The position numbers were made by a program, and so were the translations under genes. A stretch of DNA of 64,000 nt from Alphaproteobacteria bacterium (GTDB lineage: Bacteria > Pseudomonadota > Alphaproteobacteria > Reyranellales > Reyranellaceae). Positions 24,491 to 40,493 of the stretch are shown here, in pieces. The stretch covers positions 1 through 64,000 of the forward strand of contig CANJHI010000006.1 in NCBI GenBank assembly GCA_947474005.1. The letters are read 5' to 3'. The notes under the pieces were generated by a model. That model was not told the origin of the DNA and did not search any database. It worked only from the letters and a program-made list of their open reading frames with translations. How positions within the stretch are numbered: position 1 is the stretch's first letter; each line of letters starts with the position of its first letter.

Positions 24491-25399
24491 TTAGCCCGCC
24501 TTCTTGACCTTCTCCTCCGCCAGCACGCCCATCTGGCGCAGCACCTCGCGCAGGGCGGGACGCTGGGCCTCGGGGAGCGGCAGGCGCGGCGCGCGCGGTG
24601 GGCCCATGGGCATGCCCATCATCTCGAAGGCGGCCTTGGTGCCGGAGACGTAGCGCGGGCCGCCGACCCACCACAGCAGCGGCGTCATCTTCATGTAGAG
24701 CGCCAATGCTGCGTCCATGTCGCGCTTGTCGGCCACCAGCTCGAACAGCTGCGCCGACCAGCGCGGGATCACGTTCGAGCACACCGCCACCCAGCCCTCG
24801 GCGCCCAGCCAGAAGGATTCGTAGCCCAGCACGCCCGCGAACACCGTCATCTTGTCGCCGGCGAGCCGGATGATGTCGCGCACACGCGTCGGATCGAGGG
24901 TCGATTCCTTCACGTACTTGCAGTTCGGGATCTGGGCGATGCGCGCCAGCAGCTCGGGCTGCATGTCGACGTTCGACGTCGCCGGATTGTTGTAGACCAT
25001 GATCGGAATCGAAATCGCATCCGACACCTTCTTGTAGTGTGCGAACAGCTCGTCGTCCGTCGGCACGCTGTAGAACGGCGGGATGATCAGCACGCCGTCG
25101 GCGCCCATCGATTCGGCCTCGCGGCTGGTGCGCACGACCTCGTCGGTCCATTCCGCGCCGGTGCCGATCAGCACCGGCACCCGGCCGGCTGCCTGCTTGA
25201 CCACGGTTTCGACGATCTCGCGCCGCTCGTCGGGGGTCACGCTCAGGAACTCGCCGGTGCTGCCGAGCGGGATCAGGCCATGGATGCCTTCGGCGATCTG
25301 GAAGTCGACCAGGCGCTTCAGCGCCGGCACGTCGACCTTCTTGCCGTCGGCCGTGAAGGGGGTGATCAGGACGGTGTAGGTGCCGCGAAACTTCTTCAT
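24491..25399 (-). CDS. DapA-family (DHDPS/NAL superfamily) lyase or deaminase
   Basis: This 302-residue Schiff-base TIM-barrel enzyme has Lys K164 (CKYVKEST), Y136 (VYNNP) and substrate carboxylate loop GSTGE (residues 46-50). The superfamily includes dihydrodipicolinate synthase, sialic acid and keto-sugar-acid lyases, and 1-pyrroline-4-hydroxy-2-carboxylate deaminase of hydroxyproline catabolism. It is divergent by only 45 bp from the fused dehydrogenase at 25445, whose subunits occur in D-hydroxyproline and opine dehydrogenases. A hydroxyproline-type role is therefore plausible, but no epimerase or semialdehyde dehydrogenase is nearby. Confidence 0.85.
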   Translation of the reverse strand: MKKFRGTYTVLITPFTADGKKVDVPALKRLVDFQIAEGIHGLIPLGSTGEFLSVTPDERREIVETVVKQAAGRVPVLIGTGAEWTDEVVRTSREAESMGADGVLIIPPFYSVPTDDELFAHYKKVSDAISIPIMVYNNPATSNVDMQPELLARIAQIPNCKYVKESTLDPTRVRDIIRLAGDKMTVFAGVLGYESFWLGAEGWVAVCSNVIPRWSAQLFELVADKRDMDAALALYMKMTPLLWWVGGPRYVSGTKAAFEMMGMPMGPPRAPRLPLPEAQRPALREVLRQMGVLAEEKVKKAG

Positions 25400-25444: not shown

Positions 25445-28336
25445 ATGCGCCTCAAAAATCCGCACATGCGTCCGACCCATGCCGTCCGTCTCACCTTCGA
25501 CGGACGCGAGATCGAGGTGTTGCCGGGCGAGACCATCGCGGCGGCGCTGGCGGCGGCGGGAGTCACCGCCGTGCGCGCTGCCCGGTCTGGCGCGCCGCGC
25601 GGGCCGTTCTGCGGCATGGGTGTCTGCTTCGATTGCCTCGTCACGGTCGATGGCCGGCCGAGCCAGCGCGCCTGCCTGACCAAGGTCGAGGCCGGCATGG
25701 ACATCCGCTCGGCGCCGGCCGCTTCCGGCACGCCGCCAGAACAGCTGCCGACACAGGAGTTCGCCTGCGACGTGCTGATCGTGGGCGCGGGCCCCGCGGG
25801 CCTGTCGGCGGCGCGGCGCCTGGCGCTGGCCGGCCTCGACGTGATCGTGGCCGACGAGCGCCTCCATCCCGGCGGCCAATACTTTAAGCCGCTCGCGCCG
25901 TCGCATGTGGCCGACCCAGCCGCGCTCGACCGGCAGTTCCGTGACGGCGCCATCCTGCGGGAAGCAGCGCTCAGCGCCGGCGCGCGCATCCTCAACGAGA
26001 CCACCGTGTGGGCCGCCTTCTCGCCCAACGAGGTGGCCGCCCTCGTCGCCGGAAGGGCCACGATCTTCCGGCCCCAGCGCCTCGTGCTGGCGACGGGTGC
26101 CTATGAGCAGGCGTGGCCGGTGCCGGGCTGGACGCTGCCCGGCGTCATGACCGTGGGCGGCCTGCAGACGCTGGCGCGCTCGTACCGCGTGACGCCGGCC
26201 GAACGCCCGGAGGCGCGGATCGTGATTGCCGGCAACGGGCCGCTCTGCTTCCAGACCGCGCGCGAGCTGATCGACGGCGGCGCGAACGTGGTGGCGGTGA
26301 TCGAAGCCGCCCGTCGTCCCGGCCTCGCGCAATGGCAGGATGTGGCGGCGGCGACCCTGGCCGAACCGGCGATGATGTGGAACGGCCGCCGCATGCTGCG
26401 CGGCCTGGGCGATCGCGTCCGCTGGGGCGAGCGGGTGACGCGCCTGGTGGGCGAGGACCGCGTGCGCGCGGTCGAAACCAACGGCACCACGATCGACGCC
26501 GACATCGTGGCCCTGGGCTACGGCTTTGCCTCCTCGTCCGAGCTGGCGCGCGCGCTGGGCTGTGCCCATCGCTTCGTGGCGCGCGGCAGCGGCTCGATGG
26601 AGACCGTGACCGATGCCGAGGGCCGCACCAGCCTGTCCGATGTCTTCGCCATCGGCGATGGCGCGCGCTTTGGCGGGGCGCAGGCGGCGTTGGCACAGGG
26701 CGAGGTCGCCGCGGCCGCGATCTGCCGCGATCTCGGGCGGATCATGGCGAGGCCCGTCGAGGCAGAGCAGGCACTCGCCAGCTCGGCACGTTTCCAGAGT
26801 GCCCTATGGCGCCTGTTCGCGGCGCCGCCGTTCGACGCAGCCGCCATCGAGGACGAAGCCATCGTCTGCCGCTGCGAGGAGGTGACAGCGGGCGAACTGC
26901 GCCATCAGATCGCGGCCGGCCACGATTCGCCGGCGTCGCTGAAGCGCGCCTGTCGTGTCGGCATGGGCCGCTGCCAGGGCCGCTATTGCGCCGCGACGGT
27001 GGCGCGGCTCTGCAATAGTGACGCGGGCAACAGCGAAGAGATCGGCGAGTTCGGCCTGTTCGCGCCGCGCCCGCCGGCCAAGCCGGTGCCGATCCACGCG
27101 CTCAGGATCGAACAGCCCGAATGGACCGGCCATACGGATTTCGTGCCGCCCGACATGGCGCGCCAACGCTATCCTGAGCCATTGCCGGTCGAGAGCGTCG
27201 ACACGCTGGTGATCGGCGGCGGCGTCGCCGGCTCCTGTGTCGCCTACTGGCTGGCGCGCGAGGGCATCGAGGCGATGGTGGTCGAGCGCGACGACGTGAA
27301 CCTGCAGGCCTCCGGCGCCAACGCCGGCAGCCTGCACGTCCAGCTGCTCGCCTTCGATTTCACCGGCGCCGCACCGGTCGGGCCGAACCGTGCCGCCGAC
27401 ACGCTGCCGCTCGGGCCTGCGTCGATCGCGCTGTGGCAGGAGATCCAGCGCGACACCGGCCAGGACCTCGAGATCAAGGTCGCGGGCGGGCTGATGCTGG
27501 CCGAGAGCGCGCGCGACATCGAAATCCTGAAAGGCAAGATCGCGCTGGAGAAGAGCCGCGGCGTCGAGGCCGAGCTGATCGGCGCCAACGAGCTTCGCCA
27601 GCTCGAACCCTGCATCGGCGAGGCCGCCATCGCCGCCGAATGGTGCCCGGGTGAGGGCAAGATCAATCCCTTGAAGGCCACCTACGCCGTGGTGGCGCGC
27701 GCCAAGGCGCTGGGCGCGCGTTTCCGGCGCGGCAGTTCGGTGCAGGCGATCGAGCGCGCCGACTCGTCGGCAGGATCGGGCTGGCGCGTGAAGACCAGTC
27801 GCGGCGAGATCCTCTGCAAGCGCATCGTGAACGCAGCAGGACCGTGGGCGGCCGAGATCGCGGCGCTCGCGGGCCTCACCATTCCCGTGCGCGGCGCGCC
27901 GCTGCAGATGATCGTGACCGAACCCACCGCGCCGACGCTGACGCGCCTCGTGGCCTACACCGGCCGGCACCTCACGCTGAAGCAGATGGGCTCGGGCGCC
28001 TTCATGATCGGCGGCGGCTGGACCGCGGGGCTGGACGAGAAGCAGAAGCTGTCGCGGGCGCTCCGCGCCAGCGTCGAGGGCAATCTCTGGATCGCGAGCC
28101 GCGCCGTGCCTGCACTCGCGGACTTGCACGCCATCCGCATCTGGGCCGGCATGAACGTCAACATCGACCGCGCCCCGATCCTGGGCGAGGCGCCCGGCCT
28201 GCCGGGCTTTTACAACTGTGTCAGCTCCAACGGTTATACGCTGGCGCCGGTGCTGGCGCGTCTCACGGCGGAGATGCTGGCCGGCCGCGAAACGAGCTTG
28301 CCGGTGACGCCCTATCTGCTGAGCCGGTTCGGGTGA
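25445..28336 (+). CDS. Triple-fusion amino-acid/opine dehydrogenase: 2Fe-2S, HcnB/OoxA-like and DAO/HcnC-like
   Basis: This 963-residue protein joins three normally separate subunits. Residues 1-95 are an HcnA-like 2Fe-2S ferredoxin domain (C56, C61, C64, C77). Residues 105-525 are an HcnB/OoxA-like FAD oxidoreductase with VGAGPAGLSAA (113-123), a second nucleotide site IAGNGPLCF and a BFD-type Fe-S domain (C475, C477, C510, C515). Residues 585-963 are a D-amino-acid-oxidase-fold HcnC/OoxB-like domain (VIGGGVAGS, 589-597). Separate-subunit relatives oxidise glycine to cyanide, opines or D-hydroxyproline. The start may be ATG 25445 or 25466. The divergent neighbour is the DapA-family gene. Confidence 0.9.
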   Translation: MRLKNPHMRPTHAVRLTFDGREIEVLPGETIAAALAAAGVTAVRAARSGAPRGPFCGMGVCFDCLVTVDGRPSQRACLTKVEAGMDIRSAPAASGTPPEQLPTQEFACDVLIVGAGPAGLSAARRLALAGLDVIVADERLHPGGQYFKPLAPSHVADPAALDRQFRDGAILREAALSAGARILNETTVWAAFSPNEVAALVAGRATIFRPQRLVLATGAYEQAWPVPGWTLPGVMTVGGLQTLARSYRVTPAERPEARIVIAGNGPLCFQTARELIDGGANVVAVIEAARRPGLAQWQDVAAATLAEPAMMWNGRRMLRGLGDRVRWGERVTRLVGEDRVRAVETNGTTIDADIVALGYGFASSSELARALGCAHRFVARGSGSMETVTDAEGRTSLSDVFAIGDGARFGGAQAALAQGEVAAAAICRDLGRIMARPVEAEQALASSARFQSALWRLFAAPPFDAAAIEDEAIVCRCEEVTAGELRHQIAAGHDSPASLKRACRVGMGRCQGRYCAATVARLCNSDAGNSEEIGEFGLFAPRPPAKPVPIHALRIEQPEWTGHTDFVPPDMARQRYPEPLPVESVDTLVIGGGVAGSCVAYWLAREGIEAMVVERDDVNLQASGANAGSLHVQLLAFDFTGAAPVGPNRAADTLPLGPASIALWQEIQRDTGQDLEIKVAGGLMLAESARDIEILKGKIALEKSRGVEAELIGANELRQLEPCIGEAAIAAEWCPGEGKINPLKATYAVVARAKALGARFRRGSSVQAIERADSSAGSGWRVKTSRGEILCKRIVNAAGPWAAEIAALAGLTIPVRGAPLQMIVTEPTAPTLTRLVAYTGRHLTLKQMGSGAFMIGGGWTAGLDEKQKLSRALRASVEGNLWIASRAVPALADLHAIRIWAGMNVNIDRAPILGEAPGLPGFYNCVSSNGYTLAPVLARLTAEMLAGRETSLPVTPYLLSRFG

Positions 28337-29271: not shown

Positions 29272-30717
29272 TCAGTTGAAGATCGAGGGATCGATCAGCG
29301 GCCGGCCGCGCGGGCGGGCGGCTTCGGGGCGGTCGCATTTCTGGAAGAGGCCGCGGCCGGCGCTGCCGCTCATGCGACCCTCGTCCATCACGACCTCGCC
29401 GCGCGACAGGGTCATCACAGGATAGCCGGTGAGCTCGCGGCCCTCGTAGGGCGTGTAGTCGCAATTGTGGTGCAGGATCGAATTGGTGAGGCTCACCTTG
29501 CGGGTGGGATCCCACAGCACGATGTCGGCGTCGGCGCCGACGGCGATCGTGCCCTTGCGCGGATGCAGGCCGTAGATCTTGGCGGGGTTGGTTGAGGAGA
29601 GCGCCACGAACTGCTGCAGGGTGAGGCGGCCCTTGTTGACGCCTTCGGAGAACAGCAGCGGCAGGCGCGTCTCGACGCCCGGCACGCCGTTGGGAATCTT
29701 GCGGAAGCTCTGGGCGGCGCCGGGCAGCTTCTTGCCGCGCACGTCGTCGTACTTGAAGGCGGCGTGGTCCGACGACAGGACCTGGAAGGTGCCGGCGGCG
29801 AGGCCGGTCCAGATATGCTCCTGGTTGTCGGTGCCGCGCGGCGGCGGCGAGCACACGCATTTGCTGCCCTCGTCGCCCGGCTTCTCGAAATCCTCCTCGC
29901 TCAGGAACAGGTATTGCGGGCAGGTCTCGCCATAGACGCGGAGGCCGCGGGCCTGGGCGCGCTGGATCTCGTGCATGGCCTCCTTGGCCGAGACGTGCAC
30001 GAGGAGCATCGGGACGTCCAAAAGCTCGGCCAGCGAGATGGCGCGATGCGTGGCCTCGCGCTCGACGACGAAGGGCCGCGAGGTGGCGTGGAACTTGGCC
30101 GCCGTCATGCCCTTCAGTTCCAGGCGCTCGGTCAGCCAGGTGATGCAGTCGGAGTTCTCGGCATGGATCATCAGCATCGCCTGCTCGCGGCGGGCGGCGG
30201 CCAGGGCGTCGAGCATCTCGCGGTCGGTGAGTTTTACGTCGTCGTAGGTCATGTAGACCTTGAACGAGGTGTAGCCGTCGGCGACCAGGGCGGTGAAATC
30301 CTGGCCCATGATCTTGTGGCTGGCATCGGACAGGATGACGTGGAAGGCATAGTCGATCAGCGACTTGCCCTCGGCGCGCTGGTGGTACTTGTTCACCGCG
30401 TCGCGCAGCGGCTGGCCTTTGTTCTGGTAGGCGAAGGGGATGATGGTCGTGGTGCCGCCGGCCGCCGCCGCCCGGCTGCCGCTCTCGAAATCGTCGCAGA
30501 AGACCGAGCCGTCGGCCGTGTCCTGGTCGAAATGGACGTGGGCGTCGATGCCACCCGGCATCGCGATCAGGTCCGTGGCGTCGATCTCGCGCCGGCCCCG
30601 GTCGAGCCGTTCGCCCAGGGCCACCACCCGGCCGCCGGAGACGCCGATATCGCCCTTCACCACGTCTGAAGCCGTGGCGATGGTGGTGTTGCGGATGACG
30701 AGATCGTACTCGGCCAT
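29272..30717 (-). CDS. hydA: Dihydropyrimidinase/D-hydantoinase
   Basis: This 481-residue cyclic amidohydrolase opens the ring of dihydropyrimidines or 5-substituted hydantoins. Visible are metal ligands in GGIDAHVHFD (residues about 54-63), the carboxylated Lys in SFKVYMTYDD, His in LMIHAEN and LLVHVSA, and Asp in LSSDHAAF. ATG 30717 (MAEYDLVIRN) has an excellent GGAGG and is preferred to ATG 30750. It is divergent from the nucleoside operon and could link to pyrimidine breakdown. No carbamoylase gene is adjacent. The C-terminal tail is Arg/Pro-rich. Confidence 0.92.
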   Translation of the reverse strand: MAEYDLVIRNTTIATASDVVKGDIGVSGGRVVALGERLDRGRREIDATDLIAMPGGIDAHVHFDQDTADGSVFCDDFESGSRAAAAGGTTTIIPFAYQNKGQPLRDAVNKYHQRAEGKSLIDYAFHVILSDASHKIMGQDFTALVADGYTSFKVYMTYDDVKLTDREMLDALAAARREQAMLMIHAENSDCITWLTERLELKGMTAAKFHATSRPFVVEREATHRAISLAELLDVPMLLVHVSAKEAMHEIQRAQARGLRVYGETCPQYLFLSEEDFEKPGDEGSKCVCSPPPRGTDNQEHIWTGLAAGTFQVLSSDHAAFKYDDVRGKKLPGAAQSFRKIPNGVPGVETRLPLLFSEGVNKGRLTLQQFVALSSTNPAKIYGLHPRKGTIAVGADADIVLWDPTRKVSLTNSILHHNCDYTPYEGRELTGYPVMTLSRGEVVMDEGRMSGSAGRGLFQKCDRPEAARPRGRPLIDPSIFN

Positions 30718-30799
30718 GTTTTCCTCCGGGCGTAGGGCAGCAAGTTCCATGCCGCCCCATTCCCCGCCTAGACCGGGAAAGCCCCGGGGTCCACACTGT

Positions 30800-30823: not shown

Positions 30824-31828
30824 ATGAAACGCTGGATTGGACCGCTGGTCGCCCTGCTGGCGGGGACTTTGCTGCCGCTGCAGGCCGGGGCGCAGACCGA
30901 GATCAAGCCCGCCGTCGTCTACAGCACGGGCGGAAAATTCGACAAATCCTTCAACGAGGGCGTGAGTGCGGGCGCGGAGAAGTTCAAGAAGGAAACCAAC
31001 ATCGCCGTCGCCGAGTTCGAGCCCAGCAACGAGACGCAGTTCGAGCAGGCGCTGCGGCGGTTCGCCCAGCGCGGCCAGGATCCGATCATCTCGGTCGGCT
31101 TCTCGCAGGCGGTGGCGCTCGAGAAGATCGCCAAGGAATTCCCCAAGACCCGTTTCACCATCATCGACAGCGTGGTGGCGCTGCCCAACGTGCAGTCGGT
31201 GGTGTTCCGGGAGCAGGAAGGCTCGTTCCTGGTGGGCGTCCTGGCCGCCCTCGCTTCGAAGACCGGCAAGGTCGGCTTCGTCGGCGGCATGGACATCCCG
31301 CTCGTGCGCAAGTTCCAGTGCGGCTTCGAGCAGGGCATCAAATACGCCAATCCCAACGCCGAGCTGATCACCAACATGACCGGCACGACGCCCGCCGCGT
31401 GGAATGATCCCAGCCGCGGCGCCGAGCTCGCCAAGGGCCAGTTCGACCGTGGTGTCGACGTCGTCTATGCCGCCGCGGGCTCGACCGGCATCGGCATCCT
31501 GCAGGCCGCCAAGGACCGCGGGAAGCTCGGCATCGGCGTCGATTCCAACCAGAACCACCTGCATCCCGGCACGATGCTGACCTCGATGCTGAAGCGCGTC
31601 GATCTCGCCACCTACAACAGCTTCAAGGCGGCGCAGGCCGGCACTTGGAAGGGCGGCGTCCAGGTGCTCGGCCTCAAGGACGGCGGCGTCGACTGGGCGC
31701 TCGACAAGGACAACGAGAAGCTGATCACGCCCGAGATGAAGGCCAAGGTCGATGCCGCCAAGGCCGACATCGTCTCGGGCAAGATCGTGGTCCACGATTA
31801 TATGAGCAACAATTCGTGCAAGCCCTGA
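30824..31828 (+). CDS. BMP-family nucleoside-binding protein of an ABC importer
   Basis: This 334-residue periplasmic binding protein of the basic membrane protein (BMP/PnrA) family captures purine or other nucleosides. The signal peptide MKRWIGPLVALLAGTLLPLQAGA is followed by VVYSTGGKFDKSFNEGVSAGAEKF; later SVVFREQEGSFLVGVLAAL and VGFVGGMDIPLVRKFQCGFEQG are family blocks. A GGGAG lies before ATG 30824. It starts a ten-gene plus-strand operon with ATPase, two permeases and salvage enzymes, which fixes its role as nucleoside uptake. The ATPase start overlaps its 3' end. Confidence 0.93.
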   Translation: MKRWIGPLVALLAGTLLPLQAGAQTEIKPAVVYSTGGKFDKSFNEGVSAGAEKFKKETNIAVAEFEPSNETQFEQALRRFAQRGQDPIISVGFSQAVALEKIAKEFPKTRFTIIDSVVALPNVQSVVFREQEGSFLVGVLAALASKTGKVGFVGGMDIPLVRKFQCGFEQGIKYANPNAELITNMTGTTPAAWNDPSRGAELAKGQFDRGVDVVYAAAGSTGIGILQAAKDRGKLGIGVDSNQNHLHPGTMLTSMLKRVDLATYNSFKAAQAGTWKGGVQVLGLKDGGVDWALDKDNEKLITPEMKAKVDAAKADIVSGKIVVHDYMSNNSCKP

Positions 31829-33354
31829 CGCCTGCGGCAGCGGCCATCGAGCTGCGCGGGATCGACAAGTCGTTTGGGGTCGTTCATGCCGTTCGCGGCG
31901 TGTCGCTCAGGATCGAACCGGGGACGATCACCGGCATCGTCGGCGAAAACGGCGCCGGCAAATCGACGCTGATGAGCATTCTCTACGGGCTCTATCGCGC
32001 CAATTCGGGCGAGATATGGGTCGGCGGCCGGCTAGTCGAGATGGCGAGCCCGCGCGACGCCATCGCCCACGGCATCGGCATGGTCCACCAGCATTTCATG
32101 CTGATCGACACTTTCACCGTGCTCGAAAACCTGGTGCTGGGCGCCGAGGGCGGCGCGCTGCTGGCCGGCGGCCTGGCGGTGGCCCGGGCAGAGCTGGCGC
32201 GGCTGGCGCGCGACTACGGCCTGTCGGTCGATCCCGATGCCCGCGTCGCCGATCTCTCGGTCGGCGAGCAGCAGCGCGTCGAGATCCTGAAGGTGCTGTT
32301 CCGCGGTGCGCGGATCCTGATCCTGGACGAGCCCAGCGCAGTGCTGACGCCGCAGGAGACCGATCGACTGTTCGACATCCTGCGAACGCTGAAGGACCGC
32401 GGCGTCACCGTCATCCTGATCACCCACAAGCTGCGCGAGATCATGGCGGCGACCGATCGCGTCTATGTCATGCGCCAGGGCCAGATCGTGGCCGAGCGCC
32501 GCACCCGCGATACCGGCTCCGAGGAGCTCGCCGAACTGATGGTCGGCCGCAAGGTCCGCCTCGACCTCGACAAGGTGCCGGTGCGGCAGGGCGAGATCCT
32601 GTTGCGGACCGAGCATCTCTCGCTGATCGACGATCGCGGCGTGCGGCTGCTCGACGATGTCGGCATCGAGCTGCGCGCCGGCGAGATCGTCGGCATCGCG
32701 GGCGTCACGGGCAATGGACAAAGCGAACTCTTGCAGGTGCTGTCGGGCATCCGGGCACCGAGCGGTGGCCGGCTCACGGTCTGCGGCCATACGATCGACA
32801 CAGGCCATCCCGGCGATCCGGCCCAAATGCGGGAGCTTGGGCTCGCCCATGTGCCGGAGGACCGGCTGCGGCAGGGCATGGTCGCGGCCTTCCAGGCGTC
32901 GGAGACGTCGATCCTGGGCTATCAGAACGGGCCGCCGTTCACCCGCAACTATCTGCTCGACGGGCCGGCGGTCGGCGCCCATTGCGCGGAGCTGATGGAA
33001 CGCTTCGACGTGCGGCCGCGCTCGCCCGGCCTGCGCTCGTCGCATTTTTCCGGCGGCAACCAGCAGAAGCTCGTACTGGCCCGCGAGATCGCGCGCCGGC
33101 CCCGGGTGCTGCTGGTCGGCCAGCCGACGCGCGGCGTCGACATCGGCGCCATCGAATTCATCCATCGCGAGCTGGTGAAGGCGCGCGATGCAGGCTGCGC
33201 GGTGCTGGTCGTGTCGGTGGAGCTGGACGAAATCCTGTCGCTCGCCGACCGCATCCTGGTGATGTTCGCCGGCCGCATCGTGGGCGAAGTCGAGCCCGGC
33301 CGTGCCGACGAGCGCACGCTCGGCCTGATGATGGCCGGCGCCGAAACGGCATGA
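31816..33354 (+). CDS. Nucleoside ABC transporter ATPase (tandem ATP-binding domains)
   Basis: This is a roughly 512-residue duplicated ATPase of the ribose/nucleoside importer type. Domain 1 has Walker A GENGAGKST, LSVGEQQRVEI signature and ILILDEPSAVLTP. Domain 2 has the usual degenerate Walker A GVTGNGQSE, signature SGGNQQKLVLARE and LLVGQPTRGVD. The start is most likely GTG 31816, overlapping the BMP gene by 13 bp; no ATG suits. It energises the two permeases that follow with 4-bp and 1-bp overlaps. Confidence 0.92.
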   Translation: MQALTPAAAAIELRGIDKSFGVVHAVRGVSLRIEPGTITGIVGENGAGKSTLMSILYGLYRANSGEIWVGGRLVEMASPRDAIAHGIGMVHQHFMLIDTFTVLENLVLGAEGGALLAGGLAVARAELARLARDYGLSVDPDARVADLSVGEQQRVEILKVLFRGARILILDEPSAVLTPQETDRLFDILRTLKDRGVTVILITHKLREIMAATDRVYVMRQGQIVAERRTRDTGSEELAELMVGRKVRLDLDKVPVRQGEILLRTEHLSLIDDRGVRLLDDVGIELRAGEIVGIAGVTGNGQSELLQVLSGIRAPSGGRLTVCGHTIDTGHPGDPAQMRELGLAHVPEDRLRQGMVAAFQASETSILGYQNGPPFTRNYLLDGPAVGAHCAELMERFDVRPRSPGLRSSHFSGGNQQKLVLAREIARRPRVLLVGQPTRGVDIGAIEFIHRELVKARDAGCAVLVVSVELDEILSLADRILVMFAGRIVGEVEPGRADERTLGLMMAGAETA

Positions 33355-34430
33355 AGGCACCCGGACGTTCCTTGGCCGGGCCCTTGCCGGGATGGGCGGA
33401 GGTGGTGCTGCTGCCGCTGGTCAATATTGCGCTGGCCTTCATCGTCGTCGGCGTCATCGTGGCGATCATCGGCGTCGATCCGTTTCACGCGCTCCGGCTG
33501 CTGGTCACCGGTGCACTCGGCTCCTGGGAGTCGATCGGCTACACGCTCTACTACGCCACCAACTTCACCTTCACCGGCCTCGCGGTGGCCGTGGCTTTCC
33601 ACGCCGGCCTGTTCAACATCGGCGGCGAAGGCCAGGCCTATCTCGGCGGCCTGGGCTGTGGCCTCGCCATCCTGGCGCTCGATCGCTGGCTGCCGGCCTG
33701 GCTCATGATCCCGATCGCCATCGCCGCGGCGGCGCTGTTCGGCGCCGCCTGGGCCGCCGTGCCGGCCTGGCTGCAGGCGTGGCGCGGCAGCCACATCGTC
33801 ATCACCACCATCATGTTCAATTTCGTCGCCTCGGCGCTGATGGTCTACCTGATGGTGAACGTGCTGATCGCGCCGGGATCGATGACGCCTCAGAGCCGCG
33901 GCTTCCTGCCGTCCGGGCAACTGCCGGCGATCGCCGGATTGCCCCTCAATCTGTCGCTCGTGCTGGCGCTCGCCTGCTGCGCAGCCGTCTGGGTGTTCCT
34001 CTGGCACACGCCCTGGGGCTATGCGCTGCGGACCATGGGCCACAATCCCGAAGCCGCGGTCTATGCCGGCACCAACCTCAGGCGCATGACCATGGTGGCC
34101 ATGTGCTTCTCGGGCGCGCTGGCGGGCTTCGTCGGCGTCAACGAGCTGATGGGCGTCCATCATCGCATCGTTCTCGATTTCCAGGCCGGCTACGGCTTCG
34201 CCGGCATCGCCGTCGCCCTGATGGGACGCAATCATCCCCTGGGAGTCCTGCTCGCCGCGTTGCTGTTCGGCGCGCTGCAGCAGGGCGGCGCCGAACTCGC
34301 CTTCGAAATTCCCTCCATCACACGCGAGATGGTGGTGGTGATCCAGGGCCTGATCATCCTGTTCTCGGGCGCGCTGGCGCACCTGCCGCGGCCCTGGCTC
34401 CAGCTGCTGTTCGCGCGCCGGGCCCCCTGA
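33351..34430 (+). CDS. Nucleoside ABC transporter permease (first)
   Basis: This 359-residue inner-membrane permease of the BPD_transp_2 family, related to NupP/YufP, has 8-10 hydrophobic helices. Characteristic blocks are FHAGLFNIGGEGQAYLGGL, GSHIVITTIMFNFVA and MGHNPEAAVYAGTNLRRM. ATG 33351 overlaps the ATPase stop (ATGA), and the gene's TGA overlaps the next ATG by one base. It pairs with the permease at 34430 to form the heterodimeric channel for nucleosides. Confidence 0.92.
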   Translation: MKAPGRSLAGPLPGWAEVVLLPLVNIALAFIVVGVIVAIIGVDPFHALRLLVTGALGSWESIGYTLYYATNFTFTGLAVAVAFHAGLFNIGGEGQAYLGGLGCGLAILALDRWLPAWLMIPIAIAAAALFGAAWAAVPAWLQAWRGSHIVITTIMFNFVASALMVYLMVNVLIAPGSMTPQSRGFLPSGQLPAIAGLPLNLSLVLALACCAAVWVFLWHTPWGYALRTMGHNPEAAVYAGTNLRRMTMVAMCFSGALAGFVGVNELMGVHHRIVLDFQAGYGFAGIAVALMGRNHPLGVLLAALLFGALQQGGAELAFEIPSITREMVVVIQGLIILFSGALAHLPRPWLQLLFARRAP

Positions 34431-35350
34431 TGGACGAGGCCTTCTCCTTCGTCTTCCTGATGCTGGCCTCGACGCTCAGGGTCGCCACGCCGCTGGTGCT
34501 CTGCGCCATGGGCGGGCTGTTCTCGGAGAAGGGCGGCATCGTCGACGTCGGCCTCGAAGGCAAGATGCTGATGGCGGCCTTCTTTGCCGCCGCCACCGCG
34601 TCGGTCACCGGCTCGGCCTGGGCGGGCGTGGCCGCAGCCGTGATTGCGGCCGAAGCGCTGGCGCTGCTGCATGGGCTCGCCTGCATCACCTATCGCGGCA
34701 ACCAGGTGGTGAGCGGCGTTGCCATCAACATCCTGGCGGCCGGCCTCACCGTCGTTCTCGGGACCGCCTGGTTTGCCCGCGGCGGCCAGACGCCGCCCCT
34801 GGTCGGCGACCAGCGGCTGATGCCGCTTTTCCTGCCGGAGGCGGGGGACAACGTTCTGGTCTATGTCGCCCTGCTGTCGGTGCCAGCCACCTGGTGGATC
34901 ATCGCCCGCACGCGCTTTGGCCTCCGCCTGCGCGCGGTGGGTGAAATGCCGCTGGCGGTCGATGCGGCCGGTCTTTCGGTGGCCTGGCTGCGCTATCGTG
35001 CGGTCCTGCTCTGCGGCCTGCTCGCGGGCCTCGCCGGCGCCTATCTGTCGATCGGCCAGAATGCCGGTTTCAGCCGTGACATGACGGCAGGGCAGGGCTT
35101 CATCGCGCTGGCGGCCATCATCTTCGGCAAGTGGCGGGCGTGGCCGGCCTTCGGCGCCTGCCTGGTCTTCGGCCTGCTCGACGCCGTCGCCATCCGCCTG
35201 CAGGGCGTGCGCCTGCCGGGCCTGGGCGAAGTTCCAGTGCAACTGATCCAGGCCATGCCGTATCTTCTCACCATGTTCCTGCTGGCCGGCTTCATCGGCC
35301 GCGCCGTCGCGCCCAAGGCGGCCGGCGTGCCCTACGAGAAAGAGCGCTGA
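34430..35350 (+). CDS. Nucleoside ABC transporter permease (second)
   Basis: This 306-residue BPD_transp_2 permease, related to NupQ/YufQ, has about 8 helices. Family blocks are LCAMGGLFSEKGGIVDVGLEGKM (residues about 25-47), GNQVVSGVAINILAAGLT and FGLRLRAVGEMPLAVDAAGL. It overlaps the first permease by one base (TGATG) and is followed one base later by cdd. Its size and order after the first permease match nucleoside importers of the BMP type. Confidence 0.92.
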   Translation: MDEAFSFVFLMLASTLRVATPLVLCAMGGLFSEKGGIVDVGLEGKMLMAAFFAAATASVTGSAWAGVAAAVIAAEALALLHGLACITYRGNQVVSGVAINILAAGLTVVLGTAWFARGGQTPPLVGDQRLMPLFLPEAGDNVLVYVALLSVPATWWIIARTRFGLRLRAVGEMPLAVDAAGLSVAWLRYRAVLLCGLLAGLAGAYLSIGQNAGFSRDMTAGQGFIALAAIIFGKWRAWPAFGACLVFGLLDAVAIRLQGVRLPGLGEVPVQLIQAMPYLLTMFLLAGFIGRAVAPKAAGVPYEKER

Positions 35351-35351
35351 A

Positions 35352-35747
35352 ATGGATGACCTGCTCCACCTGGCGCGCCGCATGATGCTGCGCGCCCACG
35401 CGCCCTATTCGAAGTTCCATGTCGGCGCGGCGGTACGTTCCGAAGACGGCACGATCCACGGCGGCTGCAACGTCGAGAATGCCGCCTATCCCGAGGGCCT
35501 CTGCGCCGAGGCCGCGGCGATCGCGGCCATGGTGGCGGCTGGCCAGAAGCGCCTCCTGGAATGCGTTGTCGTCGGCCCTGGTCCCGAGGTCATCACGCCC
35601 TGCGGCGGCTGCCGGCAGAAGCTGCGCGAATTCGCCGGCGACGAGCTGCCGGTCCATCTCTGCGGTCCCGATGGTCTGCATCGCACGGTGACCCTGGGCC
35701 AGCTCCTGCCGATGTCCTTCGGCCCGCACAATATCGGCAAACCATGA
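35352..35747 (+). CDS. cdd: Cytidine deaminase
   Basis: This 131-residue zinc-dependent homotetrameric-type cytidine deaminase converts cytidine or deoxycytidine to uridine or deoxyuridine. Zinc ligands C51, C84 and C87 and catalytic E53 are present (GLCAEAAAI, TPCGGCRQ); HAPYSKFHVGAAV and NVENAAYPEGLCAE are standard. It starts one base after the permease stop and is clearly part of the nucleoside operon, acting on imported cytidine. Confidence 0.96.
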   Translation: MDDLLHLARRMMLRAHAPYSKFHVGAAVRSEDGTIHGGCNVENAAYPEGLCAEAAAIAAMVAAGQKRLLECVVVGPGPEVITPCGGCRQKLREFAGDELPVHLCGPDGLHRTVTLGQLLPMSFGPHNIGKP

Positions 35748-35757
35748 TTGGTAAGTC

Positions 35758-36546
35758 ATGAGCGACGTGATTGCCCGCGCAGCCCCAGGCTTCCGGCCGA
35801 AGGTGGCCGTGGTGCTGGGCTCGGGCCTCGGCGGTTTCGCTGCCGATGTGAAGACGATCGCTACCATTCCCTATGGTGAGCTGCAGGGGTTTCCGCAGAC
35901 CACCGTCGGCAGCCATGCCGGAAAGCTGGTGCTGGGCCATGTCGGCCCGACGGCGGTCGCCGTGCTGCAGGGCCGCGCGCACTACTACGAACGCGGCCGT
36001 GCCGACGAGATGAAAGGGGCCATCGACACGCTGGCCGGCCTCGGTTGCGAGACGCTGCTGCAGACCAACGCCGCCGGCAGCCTGCGGCTCGACATGCCGC
36101 CGGGTTCGGCGATGGCAATCACCGACCACATCAACTTCACGGGGGGCAATCCGCTGTTCGGCGAGAGCGGCGACGGCCGGTTCGTGGACATGGTCGACGC
36201 CTACGATCCCAAGCTGGTCGCGCAGATGCTGGCGGCGGCAAAGAGCGCCAACATTCTCTGCCATGATGGGGTCTATATCTGGTTCAGCGGTCCCAGTTTC
36301 GAAACGCCCGCCGAGATCCGCGCCGCGCGTGTTCTTGGAGCCGATGCCGTGGGCATGTCGACGGTGCCTGAGACGATCCTGGCGCGCCGGGCCGGGCTCA
36401 GGGTCGCGGCGCTCTCGCTGATGACCAACTACGCAGCAGGCCTCAGCCGCGACAAGCTCGGCCACGAGCAGACGATCGCCGTGGCGCGTGAGTCCGAGGG
36501 CAGGATGCGTCGCCTGCTGCGGCTCTTCCTCGAGCAATACGCCTAG
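35758..36546 (+). CDS. punA: Purine nucleoside phosphorylase (trimeric PunA type)
   Basis: This 262-residue phosphorylase splits purine nucleosides with phosphate into base and ribose-1-phosphate. Diagnostic segments are VVLGSGLGGFA (phosphate loop), GFPQTTVGSHAGKLVLG, LQGRAHYYERG, LLQTNAAGSL and YIWFSGPSFETPAEIRAARVLGADAVGMSTVPE. Length fits the trimeric class rather than hexameric DeoD. It sits 10 bp after cdd, with deoA 5 bp downstream, so purine and pyrimidine routes are co-expressed. Confidence 0.94.
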   Translation: MSDVIARAAPGFRPKVAVVLGSGLGGFAADVKTIATIPYGELQGFPQTTVGSHAGKLVLGHVGPTAVAVLQGRAHYYERGRADEMKGAIDTLAGLGCETLLQTNAAGSLRLDMPPGSAMAITDHINFTGGNPLFGESGDGRFVDMVDAYDPKLVAQMLAAAKSANILCHDGVYIWFSGPSFETPAEIRAARVLGADAVGMSTVPETILARRAGLRVAALSLMTNYAAGLSRDKLGHEQTIAVARESEGRMRRLLRLFLEQYA

Positions 36547-36551
36547 GCCTC

Positions 36552-37874
36552 ATGCTGCCGCAGGAGATCATCCGCCGGAAACGAGACGGCCACGAACTTT
36601 CGGCCGGGGAAATCGCCTTCATTGTCCAGGGCATCCACGATGGCAGCCTGAGTGAAGGCCAGGTGGCGTCGTTTGCCATGTCGGTGTTCTTCCGCGGCAT
36701 GACCGTGCCGGAACGCGTCGCGCTCACGCTCGGTCTCGCGCGTTCCGGGATCACGCTCGACTGGCGCGAAGCAGCTTTGCCCGGACCGGTGATCGACAAG
36801 CATTCGAGCGGCGGCGTCGGCGACAAGGTGAGCCTGATGCTGGCGCCCATCGTGGCGGCGTGTGGCGGCTTCGTGCCCATGATCTCCGGCCGTGGCCTTG
36901 GCCACACCGGCGGCACGCTCGACAAGCTGTCGTCGATCTCGGGCTACGAGACCCAGCCAGACATCGCGACCTTCCGCCGGGTCGTCCGCGAGGTCGGCTG
37001 CGCCGTGATCGGCCAGACCGACGATCTGGCGCCGGCCGATCGGCGGCTCTACGCGGTGCGCGACGTCACCGGTAGTGTCGAGTCGATCCCGCTGCTGGTG
37101 AGTTCGATCATGTCGAAGAAGGTTGCCGAGGGCCTCGACGGGCTGGTGATGGATGTGAAATGCGGCTCCGGTGCGTTCTGCGACACCGAGCCAATGGCGC
37201 GCGACCTGGCGCAAAGCCTCGTGGCTGTGGCCAACCAGGCGGGCCTGCCCACCATCGCGCTGATCACCGACATGGACCGGGTGCTGGGCCGGGAGGTCGG
37301 CAACGCGCTCGAGGTCATGGAGACGGTGGCCTATCTGACCGGCGAAGGCACGCGCGAGCCCCGCCTGCACGAGGTGACGATGGCGCTTGCCGGCGAGATG
37401 CTGGCGCTCGGCGCTCTCGTGCCCAGCGTTGCGGCCGGCCGCGCGCGCGCCGAGGCGGCGCTGGCCGACGGGCGAGCGGCGGAAGTCTTCGGCCGCATGG
37501 TGGCGGCGCTGGGTGGGCCTGCCGATTTCCTGGAACACTCCGGCCGCTACCTGTCGCGGGCACCGGTGGTCAAGCCGTGCACTGCCCTGCGATCGGGCCA
37601 TGTCGTGGGCATGAACGCCCGCCAGGTCGGCATCGCCGTCGTGGCGCTGGGCGGCGGCCGCGCCCATGCCGACGATGCGATCGACCCCTCGGTCGGCCTC
37701 AGCGAGATGACTGACGTCGGTGTGCCGATCCGAGCCGGCAACCCGCTTTGCATCGTTCATGCCGCCAGCGAGACCGACGCCGACGCGGCCATCACTCTCG
37801 TGCGCGAGGCCATCCGTATCGGCGACTCGGCGCCGGCCCATCGGCCGGTCGTCATGGAGCGCGTCGTCCAGTGA
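36552..37874 (+). CDS. deoA: Thymidine phosphorylase
   Basis: This 440-residue enzyme cleaves thymidine or deoxyuridine to base and 2-deoxyribose-1-phosphate. The signature DKHSSGGVGDKVSLMLAPIVAACGG and MISGRGLGHTGGTLDKL are complete, as is SLMSKK-like SSIMSKKVAEG and DVKCGSGAFC. Length is normal. It follows punA by 5 bp; its TGA overlaps the next gene's GTG by 4 bp. It takes deoxyuridine from cdd. Confidence 0.95.
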   Translation: MLPQEIIRRKRDGHELSAGEIAFIVQGIHDGSLSEGQVASFAMSVFFRGMTVPERVALTLGLARSGITLDWREAALPGPVIDKHSSGGVGDKVSLMLAPIVAACGGFVPMISGRGLGHTGGTLDKLSSISGYETQPDIATFRRVVREVGCAVIGQTDDLAPADRRLYAVRDVTGSVESIPLLVSSIMSKKVAEGLDGLVMDVKCGSGAFCDTEPMARDLAQSLVAVANQAGLPTIALITDMDRVLGREVGNALEVMETVAYLTGEGTREPRLHEVTMALAGEMLALGALVPSVAAGRARAEAALADGRAAEVFGRMVAALGGPADFLEHSGRYLSRAPVVKPCTALRSGHVVGMNARQVGIAVVALGGGRAHADDAIDPSVGLSEMTDVGVPIRAGNPLCIVHAASETDADAAITLVREAIRIGDSAPAHRPVVMERVVQ

Positions 37875-38683
37875 GCGCGCCCGATCTGGCGGCTTACGAG
37901 CGCGACGGCTTTCTCGTGCTGGAAGGCTTTCTGCCGCCGGCCGACTGCGATGCCCTGCAGGCGCGGGCGGCAGAACTGGTGGCCGCCTTCGATCCCGGCC
38001 CGGTGCGCACGGTCTTTTCGGCGCGCGATCAGGGCCATGCCCGCGATCTCTATTTCCAGGAATCGGGTGGGACGATCCGCTTCTTCTTCGAGGAGCAGGC
38101 GACGGACCAGCCGGTGCCGCTGGCCCTGAACAAGATCGGCCACGCGCTGCACGATCTCGATCCCGTCTTCGGCCAGGTCTCACGCCAGCCGCGGCTGGCC
38201 AGCCTCGCGCACGCACTCGGCTTCGCCCAGCCGCTGCTGCTGCAATCCATGTATCTCTTCAAGCAACCCCATATCGGCGCCGAGGTCGGCTGGCACCAGG
38301 ACGCGACTTATCTCCATACGCGGCCGTCGACCGTAACTGGTTTCTGGATCGCTCTCGACGATGCCGACCGGGACAATGGCTGCCTGATGGCGCTTCCGGG
38401 AGCCCATCGCGGCCCGTTGCGCGAGCGGTTCCTGCGCGAGGACGGCCGGTTGGTCACCCAGACGCTTGACGCCACGCCATGGCCCTCCGTCGCGCCGGTG
38501 GCGATCGAGACGCGGCGCGGCACGCTGGTCGTCCTGCACGGCTTGCTGCCGCATGCCAGCGCCCCCAATCGCTCGTCTCGGGCCCGGCACGCCTATGCCT
38601 TGCATCTGATCGATGGCAGGGCCGATTATCCAATGGACAACTGGCTGCAACGGCCAGACCTGCCGCTGCGAGGTTTTACGTGA
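37871..38683 (+). CDS. PhyH-family Fe(II)/2-oxoglutarate dioxygenase, PHYHD1-like
   Basis: This 270-residue phytanoyl-CoA-dioxygenase-family protein has the metal triad H142-x-D144 (GWHQDATYL) and H228 (GLLPHASAP), with an Arg at 237 or 239 for 2-oxoglutarate. RDGFLVLEGFL, GTIRFFFEEQ, NKIGHALHDLDPVF, LQSMYLFKQPH and the C-terminal DNWLQ resemble human PHYHD1 as recalled; PHYHD1 is an orphan oxygenase. GTG 37871 overlaps deoA's stop by 4 bp, and its TGA overlaps the next GTG. Its place between deoA and add suggests that a modified nucleoside or base is its substrate (inference). Confidence 0.87.
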   Translation: MSAPDLAAYERDGFLVLEGFLPPADCDALQARAAELVAAFDPGPVRTVFSARDQGHARDLYFQESGGTIRFFFEEQATDQPVPLALNKIGHALHDLDPVFGQVSRQPRLASLAHALGFAQPLLLQSMYLFKQPHIGAEVGWHQDATYLHTRPSTVTGFWIALDDADRDNGCLMALPGAHRGPLRERFLREDGRLVTQTLDATPWPSVAPVAIETRRGTLVVLHGLLPHASAPNRSSRARHAYALHLIDGRADYPMDNWLQRPDLPLRGFT

Positions 38684-39639
38684 TCCCCAAGGTCGAATTG
38701 CACTGTCATCTCGAAGGCTCGATCGCGCCTGAACTCGCGCGCGAGTTGGCCGCCCGCAACGGCCTCGACCTGCCCAGCGGGCTGTTCGGGCCCGACGGCC
38801 ACTACGTGTGGCACGATTTCTGGAGTTTCCTCGCCGCCTACGATCGCGTCTGCACCGTGCTGCGCACGCCGCGTGATTTCAGCGATGTGATCTATTCCTA
38901 CCTCGCGGGCGTGGCGGCCGAGGGCGCGGTCTATGTCGAGATGTTCTGTTCGCCCGAACGGCCCGCGGCATTGGGTATTTCCTATGCAGCTTGGCTCGAG
39001 GCGCTGGTCCAGGGCATCGACCGCGCCGAGCGCGAATTCGGGATCGTCGGACGTATCATCGTCATCTGCATCCGCCATCTCGGGCCTGAGCGCGCCCTGG
39101 CAATGGTGCAGGGGATGGTCGCCGAGCCGCATCCCTATGTGGTGGGCTTCGGCATGGGCGGCGATGAGGCGAAGTTCACGCCGGCTGATTTCGCGCCAGC
39201 CTACCGGATGGCGCACGAGCAGGGCTATGGTTGCACCGTTCACGCTGGCGAAGTGCTGGGGCCGGAAAGTGTCTGGGCGTCGATCAAGGCCCTGCCGGTG
39301 ACCCGGATCGGGCACGGCGTGCGGTCGGCCGACGATCCTGTCTTGATGGTGGAACTGGCGCGCCGCGGCACGGTTCTCGAGGTCTGCCCGGGCAGCAACG
39401 TCGCCCTGGGATTGTATCCGGATCGGGCATCCCATCCGTTGCATCGCTTGATCGACGCCGGGGTTGCCGTCACCCTCAATTCCGACGATCCGCCGTTTTT
39501 CCACACGACTCTCGGCAACGAGTACGACAAGGCCGGCCTCGATCCGGTGGCGCTAAGGCATATCGCACGGACGGCGCTGGAGGCTTCGTTCGCGGATGAG
39601 ACCATCAAACGGAAACTGTTGAGGGAGATCGGGCCATGA
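38680..39639 (+). CDS. add: Adenosine deaminase
   Basis: This 319-residue zinc hydrolase deaminates adenosine or deoxyadenosine to inosine forms. Metal ligands H8 and H10 (ELHCHLEGS), the catalytic Glu in VHAGEV, His in RIGHGVRS and Asp pair in NSDDPPFF are in place. Length is between adenosine and adenine deaminases, but the motif set and nucleoside operon favour adenosine. Start GTG 38680 overlaps the PhyH gene's stop, and its TGA overlaps the phosphatase ATG by 4 bp. Confidence 0.88.
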   Translation: MIPKVELHCHLEGSIAPELARELAARNGLDLPSGLFGPDGHYVWHDFWSFLAAYDRVCTVLRTPRDFSDVIYSYLAGVAAEGAVYVEMFCSPERPAALGISYAAWLEALVQGIDRAEREFGIVGRIIVICIRHLGPERALAMVQGMVAEPHPYVVGFGMGGDEAKFTPADFAPAYRMAHEQGYGCTVHAGEVLGPESVWASIKALPVTRIGHGVRSADDPVLMVELARRGTVLEVCPGSNVALGLYPDRASHPLHRLIDAGVAVTLNSDDPPFFHTTLGNEYDKAGLDPVALRHIARTALEASFADETIKRKLLREIGP

Positions 39640-40493
39640 TCGCAAGAACCTTCCTGTTGCTGGGCGCTGTCGTTGGCGCAATCCTGTCGTCAGGCATGGC
39701 ACGGGCCCAGGATGCCTCGCCCCCCAACGACATGCTGCTGGCGACCCTGTGGACCCAGGGTTCGGTCGAATACAAGGGCAATGCGCTCACGGTCTTCGCG
39801 TTGGCCCGCATCCGGCTCGACGAGGCGCTGGCCGACAAGAGCTGGACGGCGGCGCCCGTTGAGCAGAAGGGCGACTATCAGGCCCTGCCGCCGGCCGTCA
39901 TCCTCGACGTCGACGAGACCCTGATCGATAACTCGCGTTATCAGGTCTGGATGCTGAAGAACAACCAGACCTTCAGCACCAAGACGTGGAACCAGTTCTG
40001 CGCCGCCCAGGTCTCGACGGCGATCCCGGGCGCGGTCGAATTCACCAAATATGCCGATTCCAAGGGCGTGAAGGTGTTCTACATCACCAACCGCGGGGTG
40101 GAGACCGAGAAGGACACGCGCGAGAACATGGCCAAGCTCGGCTTTCCGATGGGCGGCAACGTCAATACGTTCCTGATGCAGAACGGCAAGCCGGAGTGGG
40201 GCAGCGCCAAGGGCACGCGTCGCGCCGTGATCACCAAGGATTACCGCGTCCTGCTCAACATCGGTGACAATTTCGGGGATTTCGACGATCGCTATCGTAC
40301 CGGTGACGCCGAACGCCTGAAGGCCTTCGACTCCGACATGGCCTACTGGGGCCGCCAGTGGCTGATGATCGCCAACCCGACCTACGGCTCGTTCGACACC
40401 GCGCCCTACGGCCACGACTTCAAGAAGTCGCGCGAGGAGCAGCGCAAGGCCAAGTGGGATGTGCTGGAGACGTGGGCTGGGCCCACGCCGTAG
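39636..40493 (+). CDS. Class C acid phosphatase (e(P4)-like 5'-nucleotidase)
   Basis: This 285-residue secreted HAD-superfamily phosphatase has a signal peptide (MIARTFLLLGAVVGAILSSGMARA, cleavage near AQD). The class C nucleophile motif is VILDVDETLIDNS (D91, D93), with FYITNRGVE and the C-terminal NIGDNFGDFDDRY. Homologues such as e(P4) dephosphorylate 5'-nucleotides and NMN in the periplasm. Its place at the end of a nucleoside import operon fits a role in making transportable nucleosides. ATG 39636 overlaps add by 4 bp; no lipobox Cys is seen. Confidence 0.9.
   Translation: MIARTFLLLGAVVGAILSSGMARAQDASPPNDMLLATLWTQGSVEYKGNALTVFALARIRLDEALADKSWTAAPVEQKGDYQALPPAVILDVDETLIDNSRYQVWMLKNNQTFSTKTWNQFCAAQVSTAIPGAVEFTKYADSKGVKVFYITNRGVETEKDTRENMAKLGFPMGGNVNTFLMQNGKPEWGSAKGTRRAVITKDYRVLLNIGDNFGDFDDRYRTGDAERLKAFDSDMAYWGRQWLMIANPTYGSFDTAPYGHDFKKSREEQRKAKWDVLETWAGPTP

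Follow-up and report, generated by a model that had tools for sequence, protein, structure and literature searches.

A 2-oxoglutarate (2OG)/Fe(II) oxygenase encoded in the window (the whole 64,000-nucleotide stretch of alphaproteobacterial DNA that was analyzed) is very probably a 2′-O-methyl nucleoside demethylase that feeds a nucleoside salvage operon, a prediction that draws on sequence, a structural model and analogy with characterized homologs. The demethylase chemistry itself is already known, and what is new here is the recurrent operon context. 2′-O-Methyl nucleosides are end products of RNA turnover whose catabolism was nearly unmapped before 2025, and removal of the 2′-O-methyl group very probably allows these RNA leftovers to be reused. 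The conserved operon lends genetic support, independent of biochemistry, to nucleosides as the substrates of PHYHD1-type enzymes and predicts an entire bacterial route comprising dephosphorylation, import, demethylation, deamination and phosphorolysis. It further indicates culturable hosts (Reyranella, Dongia, Stappia, Pseudovibrio) and may permit a more exact name for many genes that are labelled merely "phytanoyl-CoA dioxygenase family."

The original prediction regarded human PHYHD1, the closest relative of known structure, as an orphan enzyme, a status that is now outdated. In December 2025, FJS, a dioxygenase from a soil metagenome selected on 2′-O-methylcytidine, was described as converting this compound into cytidine and formaldehyde with 2OG as the co-substrate (Stonkus et al., NAR; PMC12709175). 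Both FJS and isoform A of human PHYHD1 demethylate 2′-O-methyl nucleosides in their free form, as do relatives from animals, plants, fungi, bacteria and viruses; bacterial enzymes with this activity include, besides FJS, those of Acidisoma, Sphingomonas and Poribacteria (PMC12709175). Neither FJS nor PHYHD1 accepts nucleotides (5′-phosphates) or 3′-O-methyl compounds, a small RNA methylated at its 3′ terminus keeps its methyl group, and human PHYH lacks the demethylase activity (PMC12709175). In phyhd1 knock-out zebrafish, free 2′-O-methyl nucleosides build up (PMC12709175), and in agreement with these substrates, rare human PHYHD1 variants were associated in 2021 with elevated urinary 2′-O-methylcytidine (P 5e-31) and 2′-O-methyluridine (PMC7878905). 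A search of the main text of the 2025 report brought up no analysis of the genomic surroundings of the bacterial enzymes (PMC12709175), and a literature search for this type of phyh nucleoside operon found nothing relevant.

Identity, predicted fold and predicted substrate contacts of the oxygenase

The gene, here termed phyh (37871-38683, forward strand, an open reading frame of 270 amino acids with a GTG start), lies as originally predicted between deoA (36552-37874) and add (38680-39639), overlapping each neighbor by 4 nucleotides with GTGA at both junctions (37871-37874 and 38680-38683). PhyH is the sole Pfam match of its product (PF05721, 158 bits). When all solved structures were searched with phmmer, human PHYHD1 (2opw/3obz) emerged as the best match by a wide interval (E 4.1e-58, 200 bits; 47% identity over 245 aligned residues), the next-best family reaching E 4.6e-14 (56 bits) and human PHYH (2a1x) E 1.9e-12 (51 bits). 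The resemblance to PHYHD1, first proposed from a few short segments, is therefore far above chance, and the segments themselves are identical (FLVLEGFL, NKIGHALH) or nearly so (MYLFKQPH and DNWLQ for the MYIFKQPH and ENWLQ of PHYHD1). In Foldseek, an AlphaFold2 model computed with 17 homologs as input (mean pLDDT 91.5) aligns best with the Fe- and 2OG-bound PHYHD1 structure 3OBZ (TM 0.91, E 2e-27), as against E 9.5e-15 for the next different structure. In the tree, human PHYHD1 and the bacterial PHYHD1-like proteins form one group, from which 12 further PhyH paralogs are separated (SH-aLRT 97, with long-branch warnings); the long branches leave the place of the human protein inside that group unsure. 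As judged by sequence, predicted fold and tree, the window protein is closest to PHYHD1, ahead of PHYH and the rest of the PhyH family, and the alignment and model endow it with the features of the PhyH fold, namely the double-stranded beta-helix, the HxD...H iron site and the 2OG-binding arginine.

Two better-known members of the superfamily, human PHYH (2A1X) and ectoine hydroxylase (ThpD/EctD), share this fold and the Fe/2OG site yet are far weaker matches. An identity as phytanoyl-CoA 2-hydroxylase (PHYH) was rejected on the basis of E 2e-12 to 2a1x versus 4e-58 to PHYHD1, and one as ectoine hydroxylase on the basis of 31.4 bits to the NCBIfam model TIGR02408, whose equivalog cut-off is 336.5.

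In every one of 115 PHYHD1-like proteins compared, the three iron-binding residues (H142, D144, H228) and the arginine that binds 2OG (R239) are unchanged. According to docking to PHYHD1, the ribose is contacted by K102, H105, Q139 and W277 and the base stacks on F161, a position occupied by tyrosine in the bacterial demethylases (PMC12709175). In the alignment, all four predicted ribose contacts are present in the window protein as K88, H91, Q125 and W258, and F161 is replaced by Y147, a tyrosine as in the active bacterial enzymes. K88 and Q125 occur in 115/115 of the PHYHD1-like proteins and H91 and W258 in 114/115 each, whereas among 46 PhyH paralogs outside this group, drawn from these and related genomes, only 2 have the lysine and the residues at the remaining three positions vary; by this comparison of sequences, the ribose contacts are characteristic of the PHYHD1-like clade. 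PHYHD1 S154, predicted to form a hydrogen bond with purines, corresponds to G140, so the base preference of the window protein may differ from that of the human enzyme.

The window protein thus shares with human PHYHD1 (2OPW, 3OBZ) its fold, nearly half of its residues, the Fe triad, the 2OG arginine and the four predicted ribose contacts, and differs from it in Y147, in G140 and in being a bacterial protein encoded in a nucleoside salvage operon. With FJS and the Acidisoma, Sphingomonas and Poribacteria enzymes, likened here by their published description, it shares a bacterial origin, PhyH-family membership and the tyrosine at the base-stacking position (PMC12709175). By every feature of sequence and modelled structure examined, it appears to be a further member of the PHYHD1/FJS demethylase family.

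Could the enzyme instead remove a methyl group from the base (of N6-methyladenosine or a 5-methyl pyrimidine, for instance) and leave the ribose 2′-O-methyl in place? The tyrosine at position 147 in place of F161 would speak for such a substrate, as would the adjoining cdd and add, since N-methyl groups are expected to block cytidine and adenosine deaminases. However, the ribose contacts are conserved, and both FJS and PHYHD1 convert N6,2′-O-dimethyladenosine into N6-methyladenosine, taking off the ribose methyl alone (PMC12709175), and base demethylation strikes us as highly improbable.

The nucleoside operon and its recurrence in other genomes

The original prediction placed phyh inside a nucleoside operon, which holds, although the operon is larger than stated and extends from bmpA at 30824 to a phosphatase gene ending at 40493. 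All ten genes (bmpA-nupABC-cdd-pnp-deoA-phyhd1-add-phosphatase) are on the forward strand, and as their junctions are overlaps or gaps of a few bases, they look like a single transcript. The first four would encode an ABC importer: bmpA (30824-31828), a PnrA-like (Bmp) nucleoside-binding protein (PF02608, E 4e-67); nupA (31816-33354), the double ABC-ATPase with two PF00005 domains; and nupB (33351-34430) and nupC (34430-35350), permeases of the BPD_transp_2 type in Pfam. Four catabolic enzymes score above the cut-offs of their models: cytidine deaminase (cdd, 35352-35747; TIGR01354, 134 bits, cut-off 114), purine-nucleoside phosphorylase (pnp, 35758-36546; NF006054, 314 bits, cut-off 218), thymidine phosphorylase (deoA; TIGR02643, 634 bits, cut-off 571) and adenosine deaminase (add; TIGR01430, 316 bits, cut-off 217). 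The last gene (39636-40493) encodes a HAD-IIIB acid phosphatase resembling e(P4) 5′-nucleotidase (PF03767, E 1e-37; TIGR01533, 188 bits, below the equivalog cut-off of 216); its N-terminus, read by eye, resembles a signal peptide, and the enzyme may act outside the cytoplasm, turning nucleotides into nucleosides there. Divergent from the operon and outside its transcript, a dihydropyrimidinase gene (29272-30750, reverse strand; TIGR02033, 542 bits, cut-off 393) is a possible outlet for the onward catabolism of pyrimidine bases.

Judging by named relatives of the locus, the window belongs to a soil and water bacterium of the alphaproteobacterial genus Reyranella. A close ortholog of phyh (70-92% identity) is present in 35/36 searched genomes of this genus, the one without being an incomplete assembly. 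The order deoA-phyh-add-phosphatase is kept in 30/30 of the same-genus loci read, and wherever the contig reaches far enough it is preceded by pnp and the genes of the importer. In a class-wide alphaproteobacterial sample, orthologs were found in 38/385 genomes. Among the 26 alphaproteobacterial genera outside Reyranella, 13 have nucleoside genes within ~9 kb of phyh and 12 have one as the direct neighbor, as compared with 3/39 and 0/39 control loci around paralogous PhyH genes in those genomes (Fisher P 2e-4 and 2e-6, respectively, both rough because the genera are not fully independent and some contigs are short). With only the gene families of the window itself, the linkage count is 12/26 genera versus 0/39 controls; the figures of 13/26 and 3/39 come from a set that also includes nucleoside hydrolase, AMP nucleosidase, DeoB and DeoC. 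Neighboring genes were called with a codon-likelihood caller that reproduces the genes of the window, except that phyh of one locus (L085) was missed and its link set manually from tblastn positions.

The commonest arrangement is bmpA-nupABC-cdd-pnp-(deoC)-deoA-deoB-phyh-add. A separate one, phyh-deoA-concentrative nucleoside transporter-nucleoside hydrolase-PfkB kinase, occurs in the gammaproteobacterial Woeseiaceae. Elsewhere phyh overlaps a nucleoside hydrolase gene (the alphaproteobacterial L098 and L220), is adjoined by a 5′-nucleotidase gene (Pelagibius), or follows directly on an AMP nucleosidase gene (L082, L086; adjoining L082:10401-11912), with bmpA-nupABC-cdd-pnp beyond. By parsimony, the linked state changed ~8 times on the tree, of which strongly supported branches force only 2. 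The association is common without being universal: half of the sampled alphaproteobacterial genera outside Reyranella (13/26) have no nucleoside gene within ~9 kb, and no link to nucleoside genes was seen in the relatives found in Myxococcota, Acidobacteriota, SAR324 and Massilia. A search of a plasmid collection returned one distant homolog only.

This patchiness bears on a mundane account, in which phyh encodes an ordinary PhyH-family hydroxylase for an unrelated small molecule and owes its position in the operon to chance. PhyH proteins have diverse substrates, the host genome carries 14 genes of the family, and the unlinked half of the genera would fit. Yet phyh is found linked in several different arrangements, whereas the remaining PhyH paralogs of those genomes almost wholly lack such a link, and the contact residues set the PHYHD1-like clade apart, making an accidental placement very unlikely. 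A nucleoside substrate, as first proposed, is instead supported jointly by the linkage in other genera, the conserved contact residues and the published biochemistry of the homologs.

Which nucleosides are the substrates is a narrower issue, as deoA adjoins phyh and deoB and deoC often do so too. The enzyme might share the substrates of DeoA and hydroxylate unmethylated 2′-deoxynucleosides (at C2′ or C1′ of, for instance, thymidine or deoxyuridine), comparable to the fungal 2OG pyrimidine deoxynucleoside 2′-hydroxylase (PDN2′H). The tested substrates named in the main text of the 2025 report include neither thymidine nor any other unmethylated deoxynucleoside (PMC12709175), which leaves room for this activity. 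Against it, the nearest relatives with measured activity are 2′-O-methyl demethylases of broad base range, and the purine genes pnp and add are equally members of the operon; we regard deoxynucleoside hydroxylation as very unlikely. There is a similarly slim chance that the operon-borne clade, beside deoA, deoB or deoC, has shifted from the 2′-O-methyl substrate to the 2′-hydroxylation of thymidine or deoxyuridine, which, if true, would give bacteria a way of converting deoxynucleosides into ribonucleosides.

A predicted route for 2′-O-methyl nucleosides

Under the favored 2′-O-methyl demethylase assignment, the Fe(II)/2OG oxygenase would hydroxylate the 2′-O-methyl carbon, and the product would then lose formaldehyde, the reaction shown for its homologs. 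The freed ribonucleoside could then be processed as any ordinary nucleoside by Cdd, Add, Pnp and DeoA. In the proposed order of events, RNA-derived 2′-O-methyl nucleotides would be dephosphorylated, imported by Bmp-NupABC and demethylated prior to deamination and phosphorolysis. Because the known enzymes refuse 5′-phosphates, the phosphatase of the operon and the 5′-nucleotidase of Pelagibius would be fitting upstream steps, with Bmp-Nup as the likely importer. We infer that the physiological role of the operon includes 2′-O-methyl nucleosides. Counting against the demethylase assignment are G140 in place of S154, the unlinked half of the genera and the seemingly general-purpose character of the operon, a set for nucleoside catabolism at large in which, phyh aside, no member is specific to 2′-O-methyl compounds.

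A different bacterial means of disposing of 2′-O-methyl nucleosides has been described in RK9NH, a 2′-O-methyluridine nucleoside hydrolase that is described together with RK9DPA and whose gene lies beside one for a DERA-like aldolase (PMC6278475). RK9NH splits the glycosidic bond and leaves 2′-O-methylribose (PMC6278475), whereas the window enzyme would take the methyl group off first.

The formaldehyde arising from demethylation must be dealt with. A gene of the GFA family ("glutathione-dependent formaldehyde-activating"; Pfam, 37 bits) stands a few genes 3′ of phyh in four Pelagibius/Kiloniellaceae-type operons (L172:13288-13710, and L174, L177 and L182); a connection to the by-product is possible, though a weak lead.

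Several other neighbors were observed. A gene of the PRA-isomerase (TrpF) family lies near phyh-add in several loci (e.g., L207:11793-12446), and in one Woeseiaceae locus a fusion of a HAD hydrolase and a GNAT acetyltransferase (L198:1756-2805) adjoins the nucleoside transporter gene and deoB. Within the window, a forward-strand gene at 25445-28336 encodes a 963-residue Fer2_4/Pyr_redox_2/BFD-type 2Fe-2S/DAO fusion that unites three oxidoreductase subunits in a single chain, perhaps an imino or amino acid dehydrogenase of the hydroxyproline or opine type as judged from its domains, and a DHDPS-family gene (24491-25399) is located on the opposite strand to it.
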